A DNA stretch of 64,000 nt from Streptomyces mobaraensis NBRC 13819 = DSM 40847 (GTDB lineage Bacteria > Actinomycetota > Actinomycetes > Streptomycetales > Streptomycetaceae). Each line of letters starts with the position of its first letter. Positions within the stretch are counted from its first letter, which is position 1. The DNA lies in NCBI RefSeq assembly GCF_017916255.1, contig NZ_CP072827.1, positions 4,861,501 through 4,925,500 of the forward strand. Reading direction: 5' to 3'. The translations under genes were made by a program, and so were the position numbers. Below, in pieces: positions 6,518 through 15,573 of the stretch. Under the pieces are notes generated by a model. The model worked only from the letters and a program-made list of their open reading frames with translations. It had not been told where the DNA came from and made no database searches.

Positions 6518-6583
6518 ATGAGCGAAACCTCCGCCGAGCCGTCCGTCCCCCGGGTCCGCGTCCTCCTCGCCGAGGAGGAGTAA
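6518..6583 (+). pseudogene. 5' stub of the response-regulator gene, severed by element insertion
   Basis: ATG 6518 opens a 21-residue frame reading MSETSAEPSVPRVRVLLAEE and then hits TAA just inside the element. The segment RVRVLLAE is the receiver-domain beta-1 strand and acidic pocket of a NarL-type response regulator. The gene resumes with RVLLAEDQSMVRE at the other end of the element (14974 onward). The stub retains the host promoter and start codon but no functional domain. Confidence 0.85.
6560..6576 (+). repeat. Left attachment-site core (attL), 17 bp
   Basis: GTCCTCCTCGCCGAGGA is present identically at 14977-14993. To its left is host response-regulator sequence, to its right element sequence leading into the integrase gene. 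The core encodes Val-Leu-Leu-Ala-Glu of the receiver domain. Confidence 0.88.
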
Positions 6584-6681: not shown

Positions 6682-8280
6682 ATGTCTGTTGAGCACGTCT
6701 GCACTATCTGCGGGAAGAGCGAGCCGAACGCTGTAGACCTCTACACGCGCAAGTCGAAGCGCTTGAGGGAAGATGACCACCGCCGCGAGCAAAGCACCGA
6801 CGCACAGTGTGAGCAGGGGCATCGCTGGGCGCACCGCAACGGGTACGCGGTGCGGAAGGTCTGGCGGGACATCCAGAGCGCGTTCAAGGACGTCAAGCGG
6901 TCCGACTTCGACCGTGCGCTGCGCGCCCTGGCCAACGGCGAGGTTCCGGCGCTGTGGGCGTACGCGATCGACCGGTTCAGCCGCAAGGGAGCCGATGACC
7001 TTCTGAAGGTCATCGGCAAGGCACGCGTCATCTTCGACATGGATGGTCTCGACTCCAACGAGACGCGTGACCGTCGCTGGATCATCAACCGGGCCGAAGA
7101 GGCACGGGAGAGCAGCGAGAACCTTTCCAAGCGGGTCAGGGACACCAAGGAAGCACAGCGCGACGCTGGGCTTTGGGTGGCCGGTCGCGCCCCGTTCGGA
7201 TACGTCGTCTCCCGCGATCGCGTCCTGACGCCGGACGAAGAGCCGTACATCTGCCACGTGGCGACGCGGACGGAGTGGACCCGTGCCGCACTTCTGCGGG
7301 AGATGTTCCGCAGGATTGCGGAGGACGGCGACTCTACGCGTGAGGTCTGCCGCTGGCTCGACGGCATGGGCGTCCCGTCCCCCGGCGGAAGCTCCTGGGG
7401 GTACGCGTACGTCCACCGCATGACCCGGAACCCTGCCTTCTCCGGGTGGCAAGTGATTCAGATTCGCCCGGGGCATCCGGAGGCCTATCGCAACAGCAAG
7501 GGCCAGAAGGTTCGCCTCAAGGGCAAGGCTCTGGTCACCTCCGAGATGCAGCGCAAGGCGCAAGAGACGCTGACGGGCGGCAATCTCATCCCGCTTGCCC
7601 ACCGGGCCCGGGATACACGGCGCAAGCACCTGCTTACGGACCTGATGCGGTGCGAGGGGTGCGGCCGGTCGATGTCCATGGGTGGCGCGTCGTACAAGTG
7701 CCAGGCCGCAACGGGAGGCACCGGATGCAAAGCAATCGCCTCCGTCAAGGTCGAGGCCATTGAGAACTTCGTCTTCAACGCCTGGTTGGCACGGCTGACC
7801 AACGCCGCTGAAGACGACCCGATCGTGATCGCCGTCTCCGAGCGCTGGACGGCCCGCGTGAGGCCGGAGGAGACGGCAGAAGAGCAGACCGCTCGCGCTG
7901 CTCTGCGCACCGCTGAGGCCGGTTTGAAGCGGCTCCTCGACGACCGGCAGGCAGGCGTCTACGACGGCGCGGCAGCGCGGTACTTTGGCCCTCTGCTGCG
8001 GGATGCGAACAAGGCTGTCGAAGCCGCCCGAGAAGAGGTCAATCACTACTCGCACGGGGGCACTGTCACGTTGCCGTTTGAAAGTGTGGAACACGAGACC
8101 CTCACGGCCACATGGGATGCGGCGGACCTGCCCAAGAAGCGTGACCTCCTCCGCCTTGCCATAGAGCGCATAACGGTCCGCAAGGCTCCGCGCCAGGGCG
8201 CCCGTTTCAACGGTCACGAACGGCTGGTCATCGAGTGGGCTCAGCCTGCCCAGCAAGAGGACTTCGCAGAGGCCGCGTAA
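6682..8280 (+). CDS. Large serine recombinase (integrase)
   Basis: The 532-aa protein should catalyse integration and, with a directionality factor, excision. The N-terminal resolvase domain contains YTRKSK with Ser25 as likely nucleophile, and the conserved arginine motif AIDRFSRKG. The recombinase domain spans about 190-310. A zinc ribbon follows with Cys324, Cys327, Cys340 and Cys349, then a coiled-coil-containing C-terminal DNA-binding region. The ATG at 6682 lies about 100 bp inside attL, the usual position for an integrase next to its att site. Unusual is a short N-terminal extension before the catalytic strand that carries its own C-x-x-C (Cys7, Cys10). No excisionase is evident; the small proteins at 9278-9879 or 12524-13400 are candidates. 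Confidence 0.95.
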   Translation: MSVEHVCTICGKSEPNAVDLYTRKSKRLREDDHRREQSTDAQCEQGHRWAHRNGYAVRKVWRDIQSAFKDVKRSDFDRALRALANGEVPALWAYAIDRFSRKGADDLLKVIGKARVIFDMDGLDSNETRDRRWIINRAEEARESSENLSKRVRDTKEAQRDAGLWVAGRAPFGYVVSRDRVLTPDEEPYICHVATRTEWTRAALLREMFRRIAEDGDSTREVCRWLDGMGVPSPGGSSWGYAYVHRMTRNPAFSGWQVIQIRPGHPEAYRNSKGQKVRLKGKALVTSEMQRKAQETLTGGNLIPLAHRARDTRRKHLLTDLMRCEGCGRSMSMGGASYKCQAATGGTGCKAIASVKVEAIENFVFNAWLARLTNAAEDDPIVIAVSERWTARVRPEETAEEQTARAALRTAEAGLKRLLDDRQAGVYDGAAARYFGPLLRDANKAVEAAREEVNHYSHGGTVTLPFESVEHETLTATWDAADLPKKRDLLRLAIERITVRKAPRQGARFNGHERLVIEWAQPAQQEDFAEAA

Positions 8281-9900: not shown

Positions 9901-10761
9901 ATGACTAATAAGATTCAGATTGACCAGGTAGCAACTGCCGCCCTGGGGCTGCTTTCGTACCAGTCCGTGCTTGGTGCCACTGTCCACCGTGACGCCGAAG
10001 CGGAGTTTGAAGGTGGCCGAGGATCGGTTGTAGGTGTTCGCCTGCCGAAGCAGCGGACCGCTAAGAACTACACGGGCACCACCGAGTACGTTGACGTAGA
10101 GGAAGGCATCGCGCACGTCAAGCTGACCGACGAGCCGACCGACGCCGCAAAGCTTGGCACTCGCGATCTGTCCCTTGATATCCGCGACTTTGGCGGACAG
10201 GTCCTCATGCCACAGCTCGACGCGGTTTCTCGCTACATCGAGAAGAACCTGGCCACGCTCATGAACACGCAGAGCGAATCGGCGGATGCTGTGGTCATTG
10301 ACCCGGCCGCCCCACTCAAGGCAATTGCCGCAGCCTCTGCCGAGTTCGTCCGGCGCGAGATCGACCCGGGGGACCGTTTCCTAGCTGTAGGCCCTGACGT
10401 GTACGGGGCCCTGCTGGACGTCGAACAGCTTCAGCGCGTGGACGCGTCGGGAGATGATTCGATGCTTTCGCGCGCCGAGATCGGGACGCTGTTCAACTTC
10501 CGCGTCATCGTCTCGCCCCTTCTGACGGGGGCCATCGCTTACCACACGACGGCTTTTGCGCTGGCGAATCGGTCACCGAACGCCAACGAGGGTGCAGGCA
10601 AGTCGAGTTCGCAGACGTTCAACGGTTACGCAATTCGTGCGACGCTCGATTACTCCGCTGACGTCAAGTCGGATGTTTCTATCGTTGACTCGCTTTGTGG
10701 TTCAACGATTCTTGATCCGAATCGGATGATTGCGTTCAAGCTCAAGGCGAGCAAGCGCTAA
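9901..10761 (+). CDS. P22-coat-like major capsid protein
   Basis: The 286-aa protein begins at ATG 9901, 7 nt after GAAAGGG. The pattern fits P22 coat-like HK97-fold shell proteins: an N-terminal helix, 'LGATVHRDAEAEFEGGRG', a strand 'GSVVGVRLPK', 'VEEGIAHVKLTDEP', and the spine-helix segment 'DLSLDIRDFGGQVLMPQLDA' then 'VSRYIEKNLATLM'. A late 'FNFRVIVSPLL' and an ADVKSDVSIVDS-type C-terminal strand follow. It is much shorter than P22 gp5 (430 aa), consistent with loss of the inserted domain. GC content is clearly lower than the chromosome. No portal, protease or terminase accompanies it. Capsid formation for a satellite packaged by a helper phage is the favoured reading; a relic or an interference capsid is the alternative. 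Confidence 0.8.
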   Translation: MTNKIQIDQVATAALGLLSYQSVLGATVHRDAEAEFEGGRGSVVGVRLPKQRTAKNYTGTTEYVDVEEGIAHVKLTDEPTDAAKLGTRDLSLDIRDFGGQVLMPQLDAVSRYIEKNLATLMNTQSESADAVVIDPAAPLKAIAAASAEFVRREIDPGDRFLAVGPDVYGALLDVEQLQRVDASGDDSMLSRAEIGTLFNFRVIVSPLLTGAIAYHTTAFALANRSPNANEGAGKSSSQTFNGYAIRATLDYSADVKSDVSIVDSLCGSTILDPNRMIAFKLKASKR

Positions 10762-11152: not shown

Positions 11153-12400
11153 ATGAGCGCTCTAGGGGAGAACGTCAGGAAGCACCGGCGGCTACGGGGT
11201 CTGACTCAGGAACAGTTGGCCTACGCGGCTGGCCTCGCTCCCTCCACCGTCGCCAAGCTGGAACAGGGCGGAAACGTCCGCATCGAAACCCTTCACATTC
11301 TGGCTCGCGCGCTGCATGTGAAGACCTCTCAACTCATGGCGTCCGACACGCCGGAACCTGTCCGAGGCGAAGACTCGACGCGCGTTGGACTCGCCGAATT
11401 GCGGAGCGCCCTTACTCCGCCCCTGGGAATCATCAACAGTGGGAGCGAAAGGCCCAACGAGGAACCAAACCTCCCCGCACTGCTGGACGTGATCCGTACC
11501 GGGTCGGCGGCATACGATTCAGATAACTTCGGTTCTGTGGCTGGCAAGATGCCTCAGATCATCCGAGACGCCAATTCCGCTGTCGCCTACTTCGACAACG
11601 GAGAGGAGCGCACAGAGGCGTTGTCTGCCCGTGCAGAGGCGTACTTGTTGGGCGGCCGGTACCTCACGCAAGTTCGGCAATATGACCTCGCCTATCACGC
11701 GCTGTCCGGGGCCATTCAGGACGCACAAGCAGTACGAGACATGGATACCGCTGGCTATGCCGTGGTGATCATGTCGTGGCTTCTGTTGAGGCAAGGGCGT
11801 TTCGATGACGCGGAGCGCGCTGCCATTGAAACGGCGGATCACCTGGAGCCGCGAATCTCGAAAGCTCCCCCGGAAAGGCTCGCAGTCTGGGGCTGGCTTG
11901 CCCTGCAAGCGGCTGCCGCTGCTGTTCGCAACAACCGTCCCGACGACAGTGCGGAAGCTCGCCGGATTGCCGAGTCTGCCGCTGCTGCCCTGGGAAGGCA
12001 TCCCGACACTCGTCACCGATTCGGACGGTTCGACACCACCGTTGCCGGAATGAAGGGGCTGGAGGATGAGTTGATCTCGGAGAACGGCGACCCTTACCGC
12101 GTGATTGACGAATCCACCGGAAAGGCCCGGTTCTCGGATCACGCCATGAAGGCGGCCCGCATTGCTGAGACGGACAAGGAATGGAACAGGCATCGGCTCA
12201 CAGTGGCGACGGCGTTCGTCAAGGTCGGTGAACACGACAAGGCGCTCGACCGGCTGACGGCCGTGGACTACGCCAACCCGCAGTGGCTCCGCCATCAGCG
12301 CATGGCACAGGACGTGATGACGGCAATCGTCCAGCGCCGTAAGCGCAGGCTCACCGCCGAGATGCGTGCCATGGCCGCCCACCTGGGCGTGCTGGGTTAG
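11153..12400 (+). CDS. XRE-family HTH regulator with TPR-like C-terminal domain
   Basis: The 415-aa protein starts at ATG 11153 with GGGGA just upstream. Residues 5-60 are a Cro/C1-type helix-turn-helix (LRGLTQEQLAYAAGLAPSTV, then AKLEQGG). Residues ~100-400 are all-helical with TPR-like pairs (AEAYLLGGRYLTQVRQYDLA, later RIAETDKEWNRHRLTVATAF). Such HTH-TPR proteins in Streptomyces often act as signal-responsive regulators near small-peptide or accessory loci. It may control the capsid half, the small-gene half, or both. A hairpin-forming repeat (GGTAGTT 12415-12421 / AACTACC 12440-12446) just downstream could be a binding site or terminator. Confidence 0.87.
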   Translation: MSALGENVRKHRRLRGLTQEQLAYAAGLAPSTVAKLEQGGNVRIETLHILARALHVKTSQLMASDTPEPVRGEDSTRVGLAELRSALTPPLGIINSGSERPNEEPNLPALLDVIRTGSAAYDSDNFGSVAGKMPQIIRDANSAVAYFDNGEERTEALSARAEAYLLGGRYLTQVRQYDLAYHALSGAIQDAQAVRDMDTAGYAVVIMSWLLLRQGRFDDAERAAIETADHLEPRISKAPPERLAVWGWLALQAAAAAVRNNRPDDSAEARRIAESAAAALGRHPDTRHRFGRFDTTVAGMKGLEDELISENGDPYRVIDESTGKARFSDHAMKAARIAETDKEWNRHRLTVATAFVKVGEHDKALDRLTAVDYANPQWLRHQRMAQDVMTAIVQRRKRRLTAEMRAMAAHLGVLG

Positions 12401-12523: not shown

Positions 12524-12886
12524 ATGGTTCACAGAACGGAAGCCGATCATCAGCGCAGGCGCGACCTCGCCGACGATGTGGCGGGGGTTGCGCGCTTGCT
12601 GCCCTGGGTGACGGATGACGGTCGACCCTGCTACCTCGCGACCGATGGCGCGGGGTGGCTGTCGGCGCTGGCCGACAACACGGAAGCCGTACAACTCGCC
12701 TTGGGTGCCGAGTTGTTGGAGCGCGTCAACGCGACGATGGGCGCCCCGAAGCTGTCGGACGGGGAACTGCGTTACCTGGTGGCCCGCCTGTACGAGGCTC
12801 TCGGCGACGCGCTGAGGGTCGCCGAGAGCCGGGGCAAACGTCTGCCGGGGGTGGACGCTGACGGCGGCGGGGAGGGGCAAGCATGA
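12524..12886 (+). CDS. Small element protein of unknown function (120 aa)
   Basis: From ATG 12524, preceded by a weak AGGGG, it encodes a soluble, mostly helical acidic protein: a helical N-terminus, a short stretch 'VTDDGRPCYLATDGAG', then long helices with 'LSDGELRYLVARLYEALGDA'. The first of three genes in an overlapping string (ATGA with the next). I recognise no family. The cluster sits between the XRE regulator and the peptide/methyltransferase pair and is probably one transcription unit with them. Confidence 0.75.
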   Translation: MVHRTEADHQRRRDLADDVAGVARLLPWVTDDGRPCYLATDGAGWLSALADNTEAVQLALGAELLERVNATMGAPKLSDGELRYLVARLYEALGDALRVAESRGKRLPGVDADGGGEGQA

Positions 12887-13089
12887 CCTTGGAGCCTGCC
12901 CCCGTGGAGGGATGCAAGGTCTGCGCACACTGCGCGAACTGGCGTAGGGCGTACCGTACGGGGGTCGGTACTTCTGACGGGTACGCGAACCTCTCGGCGG
13001 CGTCTGACTGCAACATGGAGATCCGCAACCACCCCCACCAGCCGCGCAAGGTCGCGCTCCCGATCAGGCCCCCGGCGGTGACCGCGTGA
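12883..13089 (+). CDS. Small Cys-rich protein, probable zinc binder (68 aa)
   Basis: ATG 12883 overlaps the upstream stop (ATGA) and its own stop overlaps the next GTG (GTGA). The motif GCKVCAHCANWRR gives Cys-x2-Cys-x2-Cys in the first 20 residues, and another Cys lies in 'SDCNMEIRNHPH' beside several His. This suggests a small treble-clef or zinc-ribbon-like fold. Proteins of this kind recur beside XRE regulators in streptomycete accessory loci. Function unknown. Confidence 0.7.
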   Translation: MTLEPAPVEGCKVCAHCANWRRAYRTGVGTSDGYANLSAASDCNMEIRNHPHQPRKVALPIRPPAVTA

Positions 13090-13400
13090 GCCGACAGACG
13101 TTCAAGTTCGCCGACTGGACGACTACCCCGGACCCGAAGGCGTCCGCCACGTACTCCGTCTTCTGCCGGGACAGCCTGAACGGGGCCGACGACGACCGCA
13201 ACGAGGACGCCGAGCCGTGTGGGTGGTCGTTCAGCGTTCTGGACGACAAGGCCGAGGCCGACAAGCAGCAAAAGGCCCACGTTGAGGATGCGGGACACCG
13301 GTTCTTCGTGGAGGTCTCCACGTGCCCCACGGTCGTCACGCCCCCGCCGGGATCGGTCCTGGCGGGCCGCCTCGCCCGGCTGGAACGGGCGACCCGGTGA
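13086..13400 (+). CDS. Small protein resembling the DUF7848 group (104 aa)
   Basis: GTG 13086 overlaps the preceding stop by 4 nt. The protein begins SRQTFKFADWTTTPD and contains 'YSVFCRDSLN' and 'AEPCGWSFSV', whose two Cys plus 'DAGHRFFVEVST' suggest a small metal-binding beta domain; this pattern resembles DUF7848 proteins of Streptomyces. It ends with a charged helix. It is the last gene of the overlapping trio, 132 bp before the peptide gene. Function unknown. Confidence 0.7.
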   Translation: MSRQTFKFADWTTTPDPKASATYSVFCRDSLNGADDDRNEDAEPCGWSFSVLDDKAEADKQQKAHVEDAGHRFFVEVSTCPTVVTPPPGSVLAGRLARLERATR

Positions 13401-13532: not shown

Positions 13533-13673
13533 ATGCAAAAGCACGCGTGGTGGCTGACCATGGCCGATGGCAACCCGCAGGACGACAGCGACTCGGGCAA
13601 CAAGCACGGCGGGGGCGGTTCGGACGAGGGTGGCAACACCAACGACGGCAAGGACCCGGCGGACGGCAAGTGA
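13533..13673 (+). CDS. 46-aa Asp/Gly-rich peptide, candidate RiPP precursor (imiditide-like)
   Basis: The start ATG 13533 is preceded by a strong GGAGG at 13522-13526. The peptide opens with MQKHAWWLTMADGN and ends NDGKDPADGK. It has 10 Gly, 8 Asp and 1 Glu in 46 residues, and three Asp-Gly pairs (D12-G13, D38-G39, D44-G45). Asp-Gly is the preferred sequence for aspartimide formation. Its stop overlaps the GTG start of a PIMT-like methyltransferase (GTGA), so the two are translationally coupled. That arrangement is known from imiditides, peptides whose only class-defining change is methyltransferase-driven aspartimide. No lanthionine, ATP-grasp or other maturase is nearby. Which Asp would be modified, and any cleavage site, cannot be read from sequence. 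Confidence 0.7.
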   Translation: MQKHAWWLTMADGNPQDDSDSGNKHGGGGSDEGGNTNDGKDPADGK

Positions 13674-14842
13674 CCGAGCGCACCGCGAAGGAGGTGGGCC
13701 CTCAGGGGCTCGCCTCCGTGCTCATGGAAAAGGGAGCCCTCACGAGCGCTTGGCTCCCTGCGTTCGAGGCGGTACCGCGTCACGCGTTCATGCCGAATGC
13801 GATCTGGCCCGGTCGCGCTGGCATGAACCGGCAGAGTGACCGCGTGATCCGCAGCGAGGAACCTGACGTGTGGTGGGAGGCCGTCTACCGGGACGCGCCG
13901 ATCACGACGCAATGGGATGACGGCGCGTACACCGGAACCGGCAAGGGCAAGTCCCCTACCTCTTCCAACTCCATGCCCACGATGGTGTTTTCGATGCTGG
14001 ACGCGCTCAGCGTCGAGGACGGGAACACCGTGTTGGAGGTCGGCACCGGTACCGGGTGGAACGCTGCCCTGCTGTCTCACCGGCTGGGCGCTGAGAACGT
14101 CGTCAGCGTCGAGGTGGACGAGGCCAGCGCGGAGGACGCGCGTACCCGCCTGAACCTCGCGGGGCTCCGTCCGCTGGTGCACGTCGGCGACGGGGCGCAG
14201 GGGTACCCGGAGCGGGCCCCGTACGACCGGCTGATCGCTACGTGCTCCATCGGCAGCGTGCCCCCGGCATGGCGGGAGCAGGTGAAGCCAGGCGGGGTGA
14301 TCGTGACCCCGTGGGGGCCGACGTACGGCGGGGAGGCGGTAGCGCGTCTCACGGTCGCTGAGGACGGTTCGGCGTCCGGCCCGTTCGTGGGGTCGTCGGC
14401 GTTCATGCGGATGCGTGCTCAGCGGGTCCAGCGTCAGCACGTCCGTGAGTACCTGGGCGGGCGGAAGTGGCCAGCGGACGGCGTGCAGTCCATGACATCA
14501 CTGTCCCCGGACGACGTGGGTGACTGGCACGTCATGTTCGCGATCGGGGTACAGGTGCCCGACGCGTTCCCGTGGATGGAGTCGTACGACGACGGCTCTT
14601 ACACGCTGTGGCTGCGGGACACGGCCGTCACGTCGTGGGCGACCGCTGACTACGTGCCGGGGAAGGACGAGTTCGAGGTCTACCAGTCCGGTCCCCGGAA
14701 CCTCTGGGATGAGGTGCTGGTGGCCTACCGCTGGTGGGACAAGCAGGGGCAGCCCGGGTTCGAGCGGTTCGGGCTGACCGTGGACGGCGACGGCGAGCGC
14801 GTGTGGCTCGACTCTCCGGACAACCCCGTGTCGGCACCGTAG
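13670..14842 (+). CDS. Protein-L-isoaspartate-O-methyltransferase-like enzyme paired with the 46-aa peptide
   Basis: The 390-aa product starts at GTG 13670, overlapping the peptide stop by 4 nt; a longer upstream frame would run through the peptide gene. The N-terminal ~230 residues show the PIMT pattern: 'PRHAFMP' near residue 40, the substrate/SAM loop 'SPTSSNSMPTMVFSMLDAL', motif I 'VLEVGTGTGWNAALL', and a 'VSVEVDE' acidic strand end. A ~160-residue C-terminal extension with many Trp/Tyr (WWDKQGQPGFERF) is absent from housekeeping PIMT (about 210-220 aa). It does occur in RiPP-modifying homologues (OlvS, imiditide and graspetide methyltransferases). The likely reaction is SAM-dependent methylation of an Asp side chain in the peptide, followed by spontaneous aspartimide formation. 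That is inference from family and pairing. Confidence 0.85.
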   Translation: MTERTAKEVGPQGLASVLMEKGALTSAWLPAFEAVPRHAFMPNAIWPGRAGMNRQSDRVIRSEEPDVWWEAVYRDAPITTQWDDGAYTGTGKGKSPTSSNSMPTMVFSMLDALSVEDGNTVLEVGTGTGWNAALLSHRLGAENVVSVEVDEASAEDARTRLNLAGLRPLVHVGDGAQGYPERAPYDRLIATCSIGSVPPAWREQVKPGGVIVTPWGPTYGGEAVARLTVAEDGSASGPFVGSSAFMRMRAQRVQRQHVREYLGGRKWPADGVQSMTSLSPDDVGDWHVMFAIGVQVPDAFPWMESYDDGSYTLWLRDTAVTSWATADYVPGKDEFEVYQSGPRNLWDEVLVAYRWWDKQGQPGFERFGLTVDGDGERVWLDSPDNPVSAP

Positions 14843-14934: not shown

Positions 14935-15573
14935 ATGACTGACGCCCCCGACCAGCCGCCCGTAAGATGTGTAAGAGTCCTCCTCGCCGAGGACCAGTCC
15001 ATGGTCCGCGAGGCGCTCGCGGCGCTGCTGGACCTGGAGGGCGACATCGAGGTCGTCGCGCAGGTGGCGCGGGGGGACGAGGTGGTGGAGGCGGCCCGGC
15101 GGGCGCGGCCCGACGTGGCGCTGCTGGACATCGAGATGCCCGGGATGACGGGCCTGGAGGCGGCGGCGCTGCTGGGGCGGGAGGTGCCGGAGGTACGGAT
15201 CGTCATCCTCACGACGTTCGGCCGCCCCGGCTATCTGCGCCGGGCGATGGAGGCGGGCGCGTCCGCCTTCCTGGTCAAGGACGCCCCGGCGGCCCAGCTG
15301 GCGGACGCCGTGCGCCGGGTGCTGCGCGGCGAGCGCGTCATCGACCCGGCCCTCGCGGCGGCGGCCCTCGCCGCGGGGGCGGACCCGCTGACCGAGCGCG
15401 AACGGTCGGTGCTGCGCGCCTCTGCCGACGGTTCGACCAACGCCGAACTGGCGAAGCGGCTCCACCTGTCGCACGGGACCGTCCGCAACTACCTGTCGAC
15501 GGCGATCCAGAAGACGGGCGCGCGGAACCGGGCCGACGCGGTGCGCATCGCGCGGGAGAAGGGGTGGCTCTGA
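14935..15573 (+). CDS. NarL/DesR-family response regulator with element-supplied 5' end
   Basis: The 212-aa protein has a receiver domain (acidic pair Glu19-Asp20, phospho-acceptor Asp65 in VALLDIEMPGMTG, conserved Lys in FLVKD) and a LuxR-type HTH (LTERERSVLRASADGSTNAE ... HLSHGTVRNYLS). Everything from codon 15 (within attR, 14977) is host sequence; codons 1-14 (MTDAPDQPPVRCVR) come from the mobile element. They replace the native MSETSAEPSVPRVR encoded at 6518. The reading frame is exactly restored, so the regulator is probably functional. It pairs with the kinase at 5250-6458 and probably controls the exporter operon at 3503, but it is now transcribed from element DNA downstream of the methyltransferase gene. 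Confidence 0.93.
   Translation: MTDAPDQPPVRCVRVLLAEDQSMVREALAALLDLEGDIEVVAQVARGDEVVEAARRARPDVALLDIEMPGMTGLEAAALLGREVPEVRIVILTTFGRPGYLRRAMEAGASAFLVKDAPAAQLADAVRRVLRGERVIDPALAAAALAAGADPLTERERSVLRASADGSTNAELAKRLHLSHGTVRNYLSTAIQKTGARNRADAVRIAREKGWL
14977..14993 (+). repeat. Right attachment-site core (attR), 17 bp
   Basis: Identical to the core at 6560-6576. Left of it is element sequence with a GTAAGA-TGT-GTAAGA direct repeat; right of it is the host response-regulator gene (GGACCAGTCC onward). Confidence 0.88.

Follow-up and report, generated by a model that had tools for sequence, protein, structure and literature searches.

What does a methyltransferase gene of the PIMT kind do when a very small gene runs into its start, and when both are carried by an integrated element? 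The case in point lies in the 64,000-nucleotide stretch of Streptomyces mobaraensis DNA analysed here (the window). The original prediction was of an imiditide-type locus, in which a short Asp/Gly-rich peptide is the substrate of the enzyme. Imiditides are a recent class of RiPPs built on aspartimide, and their biological function was named the bigger challenge in a 2026 review (PMC13001092). We find it likely that the pair is a two-gene imiditide (type I pamtide) locus whose enzyme methylates an Asp of the peptide and so leads to aspartimide, a reading supported by genetics and homology because the pairing of peptide and enzyme is strict, because the clade of these enzymes stands beside enzymes with type I-like upstream peptides and because the WXXXGXP motif is present.

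The integrated element and its peptide/methyltransferase pair

The pair is found at the far end of an 8.4-kb element that is bounded by two att cores identical over 17 bp; the copies are spaced by 8417 bp and form part of a longer, diverged match. The features are as follows (window coordinates).

6560..6576, + strand: left att core, GTCCTCCTCGCCGAGGA, in the 5' part of a response-regulator-like gene with its old start at 6518
6682..8280, + strand: large serine integrase, 532 aa (PF07508, PF00239, phrog_95)
9901..10761, + strand: major capsid protein homologue, 286 aa (PF11651, 1.9e-9; phrog_283, 2.6e-34)
11153..12400, + strand: HTH regulator of the XRE family (415 aa, phrog_5823), which belongs to the conserved neighbourhood
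12524-12886, 12883-13089 and 13086-13400, + strand: three small ORFs between regulator and pair, the last a DUF7848 protein
13533..13673, + strand: putative precursor peptide gene, ATG 13533, TGA 13671-13673, 46 aa, rich in Gly, Asp, Asn and Ser
13584..13586, + strand: Asp18 codon; all 47 motif-bearing peptides have this Asp; second-choice candidate for the modified residue
13644..13646, + strand: Asp38 codon (NDG); the residue does not vary in the 18 rows of alignment A3; first-choice candidate for the modified residue
13670..14842, + strand: PIMT-like (PAMT-type) methyltransferase, GTG 13670, TAG 14840-14842, 390 aa
14977..14993, + strand: right att core, running on into the response-regulator-like gene

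To judge by the ORFs, the gene that the element splits is a response regulator of the LuxR type, and a histidine-kinase-like gene precedes it; in relatives L171-L175 the two genes adjoin each other, and the att site, in the same or a similar form, is uninterrupted. At the right junction (14935-14993) the element provides the response-regulator-like gene with a new in-frame ATG (14935) and a new N-terminus, and the old start is left behind as a 21-codon remnant (6518-6583). Integrase, att cores and the PF11651/phrog_283 gene together bear out the original prediction of a mobile element with a capsid gene beside the pair. The capsid homologue is 35% identical over 91% to Curtobacterium phage capsid proteins; no further capsid, packaging or tail gene was recognised among the ten element proteins scanned, and a lone capsid homologue on an element of 8.4 kb may denote a satellite, a remnant or some other use. 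It is not a regular companion of the pair, being found in 9 of 294 other genomes at 32-39% identity. The absence of another maturase, which had also been claimed, agrees with what we found: the locus has the two-gene make-up of the class, with no other primary maturase recognised by Pfam or NCBIfam in the nine other element proteins scanned. Nor was any protease or exporter family seen among the ten proteins scanned, and a match of 0.007 between the integrase and a bacteriocin model was taken as chance. A search at the pair turned up neither a sigma-70-like promoter nor a terminator.

A ribosome-binding site (GGAGG) stands just 5' of the ATG of the peptide ORF, the product of which is MQKHAWWLTMADGNPQDDSDSGNKHGGGGSDEGGNTNDGKDPADGK. 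The 46-aa Asp/Gly-rich peptide that had been predicted is thus present, as are its three Asp-Gly pairs (at D12, D38 and D44), and the predicted overlap between its stop and the start of the methyltransferase gene is exact, the four shared letters being GTGA. In the enzyme, the match to PF01135 (2.9e-29) covers residues 56-234 and so ends at residue 234 of 390, leaving about 155 residues towards the C-terminus, close to the extension of some 160 residues foreseen and beyond the 100 residues that mark membership of the class. The best NCBIfam match is TIGR04188 (ATP-grasp peptide maturase system methyltransferase), near full-length and with a score of 335 bits where the cut-off is 380; the phage methyltransferase family phrog_13505 matches residues 7-387 with 482 bits. 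The pimt model TIGR00080 gives 84.7 bits against a cut-off of 159.05, the enzyme having 390 aa and the model 216 positions; solved PIMTs were among the matches, and a profile search of solved structures aligned the catalytic part only (residues 83-221 with 1DL5). The WXXXGXP motif is found near the C-terminus as WDKQGQP (356-362), and 38 of 47 relatives hold its strict form. A PADLOC match to mad2 (7.6e-17, residues 103-218) was read as a shared methyltransferase fold.

Pairing and conservation of peptide and enzyme

The peptide family is encoded directly upstream of all 50 non-redundant methyltransferases that are at least 53% identical to the window enzyme, a set drawn from the genus sample and from loci of genome contigs, plasmids and phages; 47 peptides were assigned by motif, two are shortened (L026, L033) and one was assigned by eye (L056). 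Homologous methyltransferases without the peptide gene were looked for among these close homologues (at least 53%) and none was found, which leaves the imiditide reading unrefuted. In the genus sample, a methyltransferase search at 1e-60 gave matches in 137 of 392 genomes, and 38 of the 392 hold the 43 listed full-length places of at least 54% identity, with a fragment in G012 besides; all 43, the G012 fragment and a hand-picked 29 lower ones were read. When the peptide profile (A3) was run in the other direction, against 384 congeneric genomes, 44 matches were obtained, 40 beside an intact enzyme (including L046 of G329, an enzyme with a stop that was counted here) and four beside an enzyme that is frameshifted or partly deleted, so that every profile match in the 384 genomes had the enzyme, whole or as a remnant, next to it. 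At three of the 43 enzyme places there was no profile match: two are those of the shortened peptides, L026 and L033, and at the third, in G385, the peptide was read directly (L053). Peptide and enzyme distances co-vary across 46 pairs (Mantel r 0.61, with none of 2000 permutations as high). Among 396 genomes of the phylum sample the close form of the enzyme (1e-110) occurs in two, both of the window's genus, and Kitasatospora contributed one copy of the pair (L007).

Broken copies are of three kinds. The enzyme is damaged beside a peptide that looks intact in three (L046, L212, L213), both genes are damaged by one change in two (L214 and L215, where the peptide runs into what remains of the enzyme), and the peptide is shortened beside an intact enzyme in two (L033, and L026, which lacks D18 and HGGxG).

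The shortened peptides were left out of the 18-row, 47-peptide and 48-row sets on which the description of the peptide rests. Forty-seven precursors consist on average of 29.6% Gly, 12.8% Asp and 4.1% Pro, with the conserved Asp present, and have a mean net charge of -4.1. Eight positions are invariant in 18 representative peptides (D18, G22, H25, G26, G27, G29, G33, D38); in the 48-row alignment D18, G22, H25, G26, G27 and G29 remain so, with one further Gly on each side, and D38 stands at 90%. All 48 peptides have an Asp 13-16 residues from the histidine of HGGxG. The three Asp-Gly pairs do not hold up as a conserved feature, that place being taken by the HGGxG motif together with D18 and D38: towards the C-terminus, 42 of 47 relatives have (N/S)DG, and the other two pairs are less widespread. 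Six precursors (L040, L047, L051, L056, L066, L067) are without (N/S)DG and have DSGHSD or RDD(S/T) near the end; their enzymes lie near one another on the tree, where the absence amounts to two changes, and these peptides should be useful for locating the modified Asp.

A stretch of 24 aa anchored on the HGGxG histidine takes 21 protein forms and 47 DNA forms in 47 peptides; one protein form is common to 20 of the 47, and the DNA differs in all 47. Mean pS over this stretch is 0.45 and mean pN 0.19 (1081 pairs), the latter being inflated because indels were not corrected for. An earlier count, of 21 sequences sharing a single 24-aa core, had selected its rows by that same core and is therefore evidence of synonymous variety only. 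The peptide is conserved at the protein level, with synonymous change exceeding non-synonymous change, and, given pairing and conservation, its ORF is not a chance one.

The same chromosome has a second window-type pair (L017, L090; G000:C1:2700009-2701151) about 2.2 Mb away, with an enzyme 77% identical, beside a regulator that resembles PapayaSalad gp52 (48%) and with no listed serine recombinase close by. A third methyltransferase of this genome (L018; G000:C1:4607331-4608458), 36-37% identical, follows a graspetide-ATP-grasp-like ORF.

Mobile carriage and the regulatory neighbourhood

By tblastn the enzyme was found at a coverage of at least 80% in eight phage records under five phage names, the host being S. 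venezuelae. The peptide was read in the phages Alderaan and PapayaSalad and in IMG/VR contigs L110-L114, of which L113 and L114 were taken as the phages Ididsumtinwong and Austintatious, and L111 gives the same matches as the G367 prophage. Gene order in PapayaSalad is integrase, an opposed regulator, two small ORFs, a tRNA, the peptide (gp25) and the enzyme (gp24), followed by lysis genes on the other strand. Mobile carriage had been put forward as new; the carriage itself stands, and its being peculiar to the window does not, sequenced Streptomyces phages having the same kind of pair. In G367, matches to integrase, holin and tail families show the pair to be in a prophage, and a serine recombinase lies 36 kb from the pair. 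A scan of 22 genomes for PF07508 serine recombinases and tyrosine integrases placed a serine recombinase within 8 kb of a pair in G000, G206 and G048 and, in G039, a tyrosine integrase at 19 kb from one of the pairs; in the remaining genomes of the 22 there was none close to the pair among the matches listed. A linear Streptomyces plasmid carries a copy 79% identical. Around many other copies, the stretches read showed no sign of a mobile element. The pair occurs on phages, integrated elements, chromosomes and a plasmid.

Viral contigs (IMG/VR) gave no matches to a single-protein scan. An alignment scan gave 54 loci, five with the window peptide type, 18 with a PDG string, five with another G/P/D-rich string and 26 with none by pattern; on reading, the 18 PDG strings proved to be precursor-like in eight, within ATP-grasp-like ORFs in nine and neither in one. 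A tblastn search with the phage peptide had no matches, probably owing to the BLAST low-complexity filter. One contig (L122, IMG/VR 3300022903) has, upstream of 10001, a Gly/Asn/Asp-rich, Pro-poor peptide before a methyltransferase 43% identical, perhaps a further precursor type. Saccharomonospora phage PIS 136 (L013, 1764-3629) groups HTH_31 and DUF397 with a methyltransferase whose annotation is split in two.

An XRE-type HTH gene is present within 3.2 kb upstream of the pair at 38 of 39 loci or, since four of the loci repeat places already read, at 34 of 35 distinct places. The small HTH model behind this count was started from four regulators (window, PapayaSalad, Alderaan and L007) and went through one round of iteration on the same loci; a few of its matches are weak (L101, 2.9e-4), and eight further matches fall elsewhere in the same stretches. 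At loci of the PDG type the corresponding figure is 13 of 20 within about 4 kb, several of them weak; 12 of the 13 fall inside 3.2 kb. The regulators are of several kinds, so what is conserved is the association rather than any single gene. DUF397/DUF5753 XRE pairs are described beside PIMT-bearing graspetides (PMC13097080), and a figure legend places pcmt and hth genes on Frankia integrative elements (PMC3218068). The island at L164 (G048 contig 100, 2989-12274) holds an XRE regulator 84% identical to that of the window, a diverged pair, a serine recombinase and, between regulator and pair as in the window, DUF7848; at the threshold used it had no match to the window integrase or coat protein.

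Listings of openly accessible literature showed no report of a phage-borne imiditide. A word search of the main texts of PMC10787088 and PMC13001092 returned no occurrence of phage, mobile or regulator, and a like search of the main texts of two papers on Alderaan returned none of methyltransferase. Relative to the open texts, the Pro-poor precursor type (which PMC10787088 may list in its supplementary dataset), carriage by an 8.4-kb element and by Streptomyces phages, and the XRE association are new.

Proposed explanation and relation to known systems

Our working hypothesis builds on the observed genes, strict pairing, peptide conservation, enzyme homology and motif, and mobile carriage, and holds that the peptide is probably the substrate of the methyltransferase whose gene it overlaps. 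The peptide would be translated first and the enzyme by translational coupling through the GTGA overlap; the extra C-terminal domain of this PIMT relative would bind the substrate, and the enzyme, with SAM, would place a methyl ester on one Asp side chain of the otherwise unmodified peptide, most likely Asp38 (in NDG) and otherwise Asp18. Collapse of the ester would then give an aspartimide, which may last or be hydrolysed to isoaspartate.

Strict pairing and co-variation would be equally expected if the peptide were an obligate small partner of the enzyme (an activator, adaptor or decoy) and the target were the XRE regulator or a host or phage protein. The regulator is nearly always near the pair (38 of 39 loci), and a protein target, an FHA protein, has been suggested for another PAMT group (PMC10787088). 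We nevertheless think such a partnership improbable: the type I pair SpaA/SpaM modifies a linear peptide at a conserved Asp (PMC10787088), and two Asp positions are kept in a peptide that is otherwise Gly-rich. Mobile carriage, a peptide gene that comes first, overlapping genes and an XRE neighbour would also suit a toxin-antitoxin-like or addiction pair, in which free enzyme would do harm through wide methylation of Asp, the peptide would be a decoy and the regulator would control dosage. It has been pointed out that a promiscuous enzyme could be catastrophic (PMC13001092), and DUF397-XRE pairs were once predicted as toxin-antitoxin systems (PMC2701414). An addiction pair is very unlikely all the same, for the broken copies (three of the enzyme only, two of both, two of the peptide only) lend it no support and type I pairs have been expressed in E. 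coli as ordinary biosynthesis (PMC13001092). That the enzyme is of the housekeeping type, repairs isoaspartate and has a small ORF in front by coincidence is hardly credible, despite the PF01135 domain and the matches to solved PIMTs: nowhere in the sample did the peptide occur without the enzyme or a remnant of it, the C-terminal extension has about 155 residues, and the pimt score of 84.7 bits falls short of 159.05. Because the pairing is strict, the plain repair reading was rejected.

What the imiditide locus proposed above would do for its carriers is a separate matter. One rather doubtful suggestion is that a phage-borne RiPP is used inside the cell, regulator, peptide and methyltransferase forming a transferable module in which the peptide, bearing aspartimide or isoAsp, would bind a target as a ligand or modify it covalently; this might be the nearby XRE regulator (a prophage signal) or a target of incoming phages (superinfection immunity). 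Intracellular lanthipeptides, described as blocking phages in Streptomyces (PMC12360287), are the closest precedent that we found for a phage-related role. It seems that the aspartimide peptide class has a phage-carried branch. Its presence on isolated phages that grow on S. venezuelae offers a tractable genetic system for imiditide function, and concrete first hypotheses come from the XRE gene that is nearly always close by and from the two Asp residues that are kept.

The enzymes were placed on a tree of 92 rows (quick method, midpoint root for drawing only), on which the 51 window-type enzymes form one clade (SH-aLRT 99), as is in part expected because the type label was set by enzyme identity above 53%; the presence of a peptide for each of 50 enzymes is independent of these labels. 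The neighbouring branch comprises 32 enzymes, 30 labelled PDG and two other, with peptides that mostly have PDG in a G/P/D-rich sequence. Outside both lie L088 and L009 (PDG-or-PDP label) and six enzymes behind ATP-grasp-like ORFs. Among the 32 rows below 53% identity, 28 match the PDG-or-PDP pattern and three match none, 26 of the 32 holding PDG itself; the pattern label of one row, L076, is wrong. We read the PDG peptides as type I pamtide precursors by published description (PMC10787088, section 2.3) and not by a match to a named sequence, and the placement of the window enzyme is relative to uncharacterised look-alikes, SpaM and NmaM not being among the tree rows. Layout, extension, WXXXGXP, co-occurrence and tree position all favour the original imiditide assignment. 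The Gly and Asp content of the precursors fits as well; their low Pro content and negative charge speak against it, as do the TIGR04188 score below the cut-off, the lack of a protease or exporter family among the ten element proteins scanned and the two intact enzymes with shortened peptides. The finding is real and the class reading well founded, and the variant is worth naming for its precursor type, mobile carriage and regulator link; it constitutes a distinct clade with its own precursor signature, QDD-x4-G-x2-HGGxG, followed in most by (N/S)DG.

With canonical PIMT (pcm) the window enzyme has the catalytic domain in common. Canonical PIMT has a repair role and is not known to have a peptide partner or a C-terminal extension of this kind. 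The family of the graspetide-associated PIMTs (TIGR04188; graspimiditides) gives the best NCBIfam match over the full length, C-terminal domain included; unlike their clusters, the element has no ATP-grasp family among its ten proteins scanned, and on this ground, and because the enzyme is in a clade separate from the six ATP-grasp-linked enzymes, a graspetide methyltransferase was rejected. Among the known carriers are complete Streptomyces phages of Austintatiousvirus (PapayaSalad gp24, Alderaan HQ601_00033; phrog_13505), with full-length homologues at 55-57% identity, the same peptide family in front, a regulator near as in the window and, in PapayaSalad, an integrase near, the pair being annotated merely as a methyltransferase and a hypothetical protein.

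Imiditide clusters consist of a precursor and a PIMT homologue that acts on linear peptides (PMC13001092). NmaA/NmaM gives aspartimide and methylated species (PMC13001092), and SpaA/SpaM gives +14 and -18 Da species with hydrazine trapping, isoAsp being inferred there (PMC10787088). As in the published accounts of these imiditides or type I pamtides, the window pair has two genes, a linear precursor of about 45 aa, a Streptomyces host, a C-terminally extended PIMT homologue with WXXXGXP, a conserved Asp near Gly and no other maturase recognised among the element proteins scanned. A swap of charge between an acidic peptide and a basic enzyme was considered and dropped, whole C-terminal regions, and the precursors as well, being net negative in both groups; the first 45 residues of that region average +1.8 in the window clade and -1.2 in the PDG group. 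Imiditides are described as strongly positive (PMC13001092), whereas window-type precursors are net negative (mean -4.1), and the PDG precursors are also negative (mean -2.2). Published type I precursors contain 16.8% Pro (PMC10787088), in contrast to the 4.1% of the window type, which is rich in Asn, Ser, Asp and Gly and has HGGxG and two kept Asp residues. Unlike SpaA-SpaM and NmaA-NmaM, the window pair belongs to a separate enzyme clade and is carried by phages and by an 8.4-kb element.
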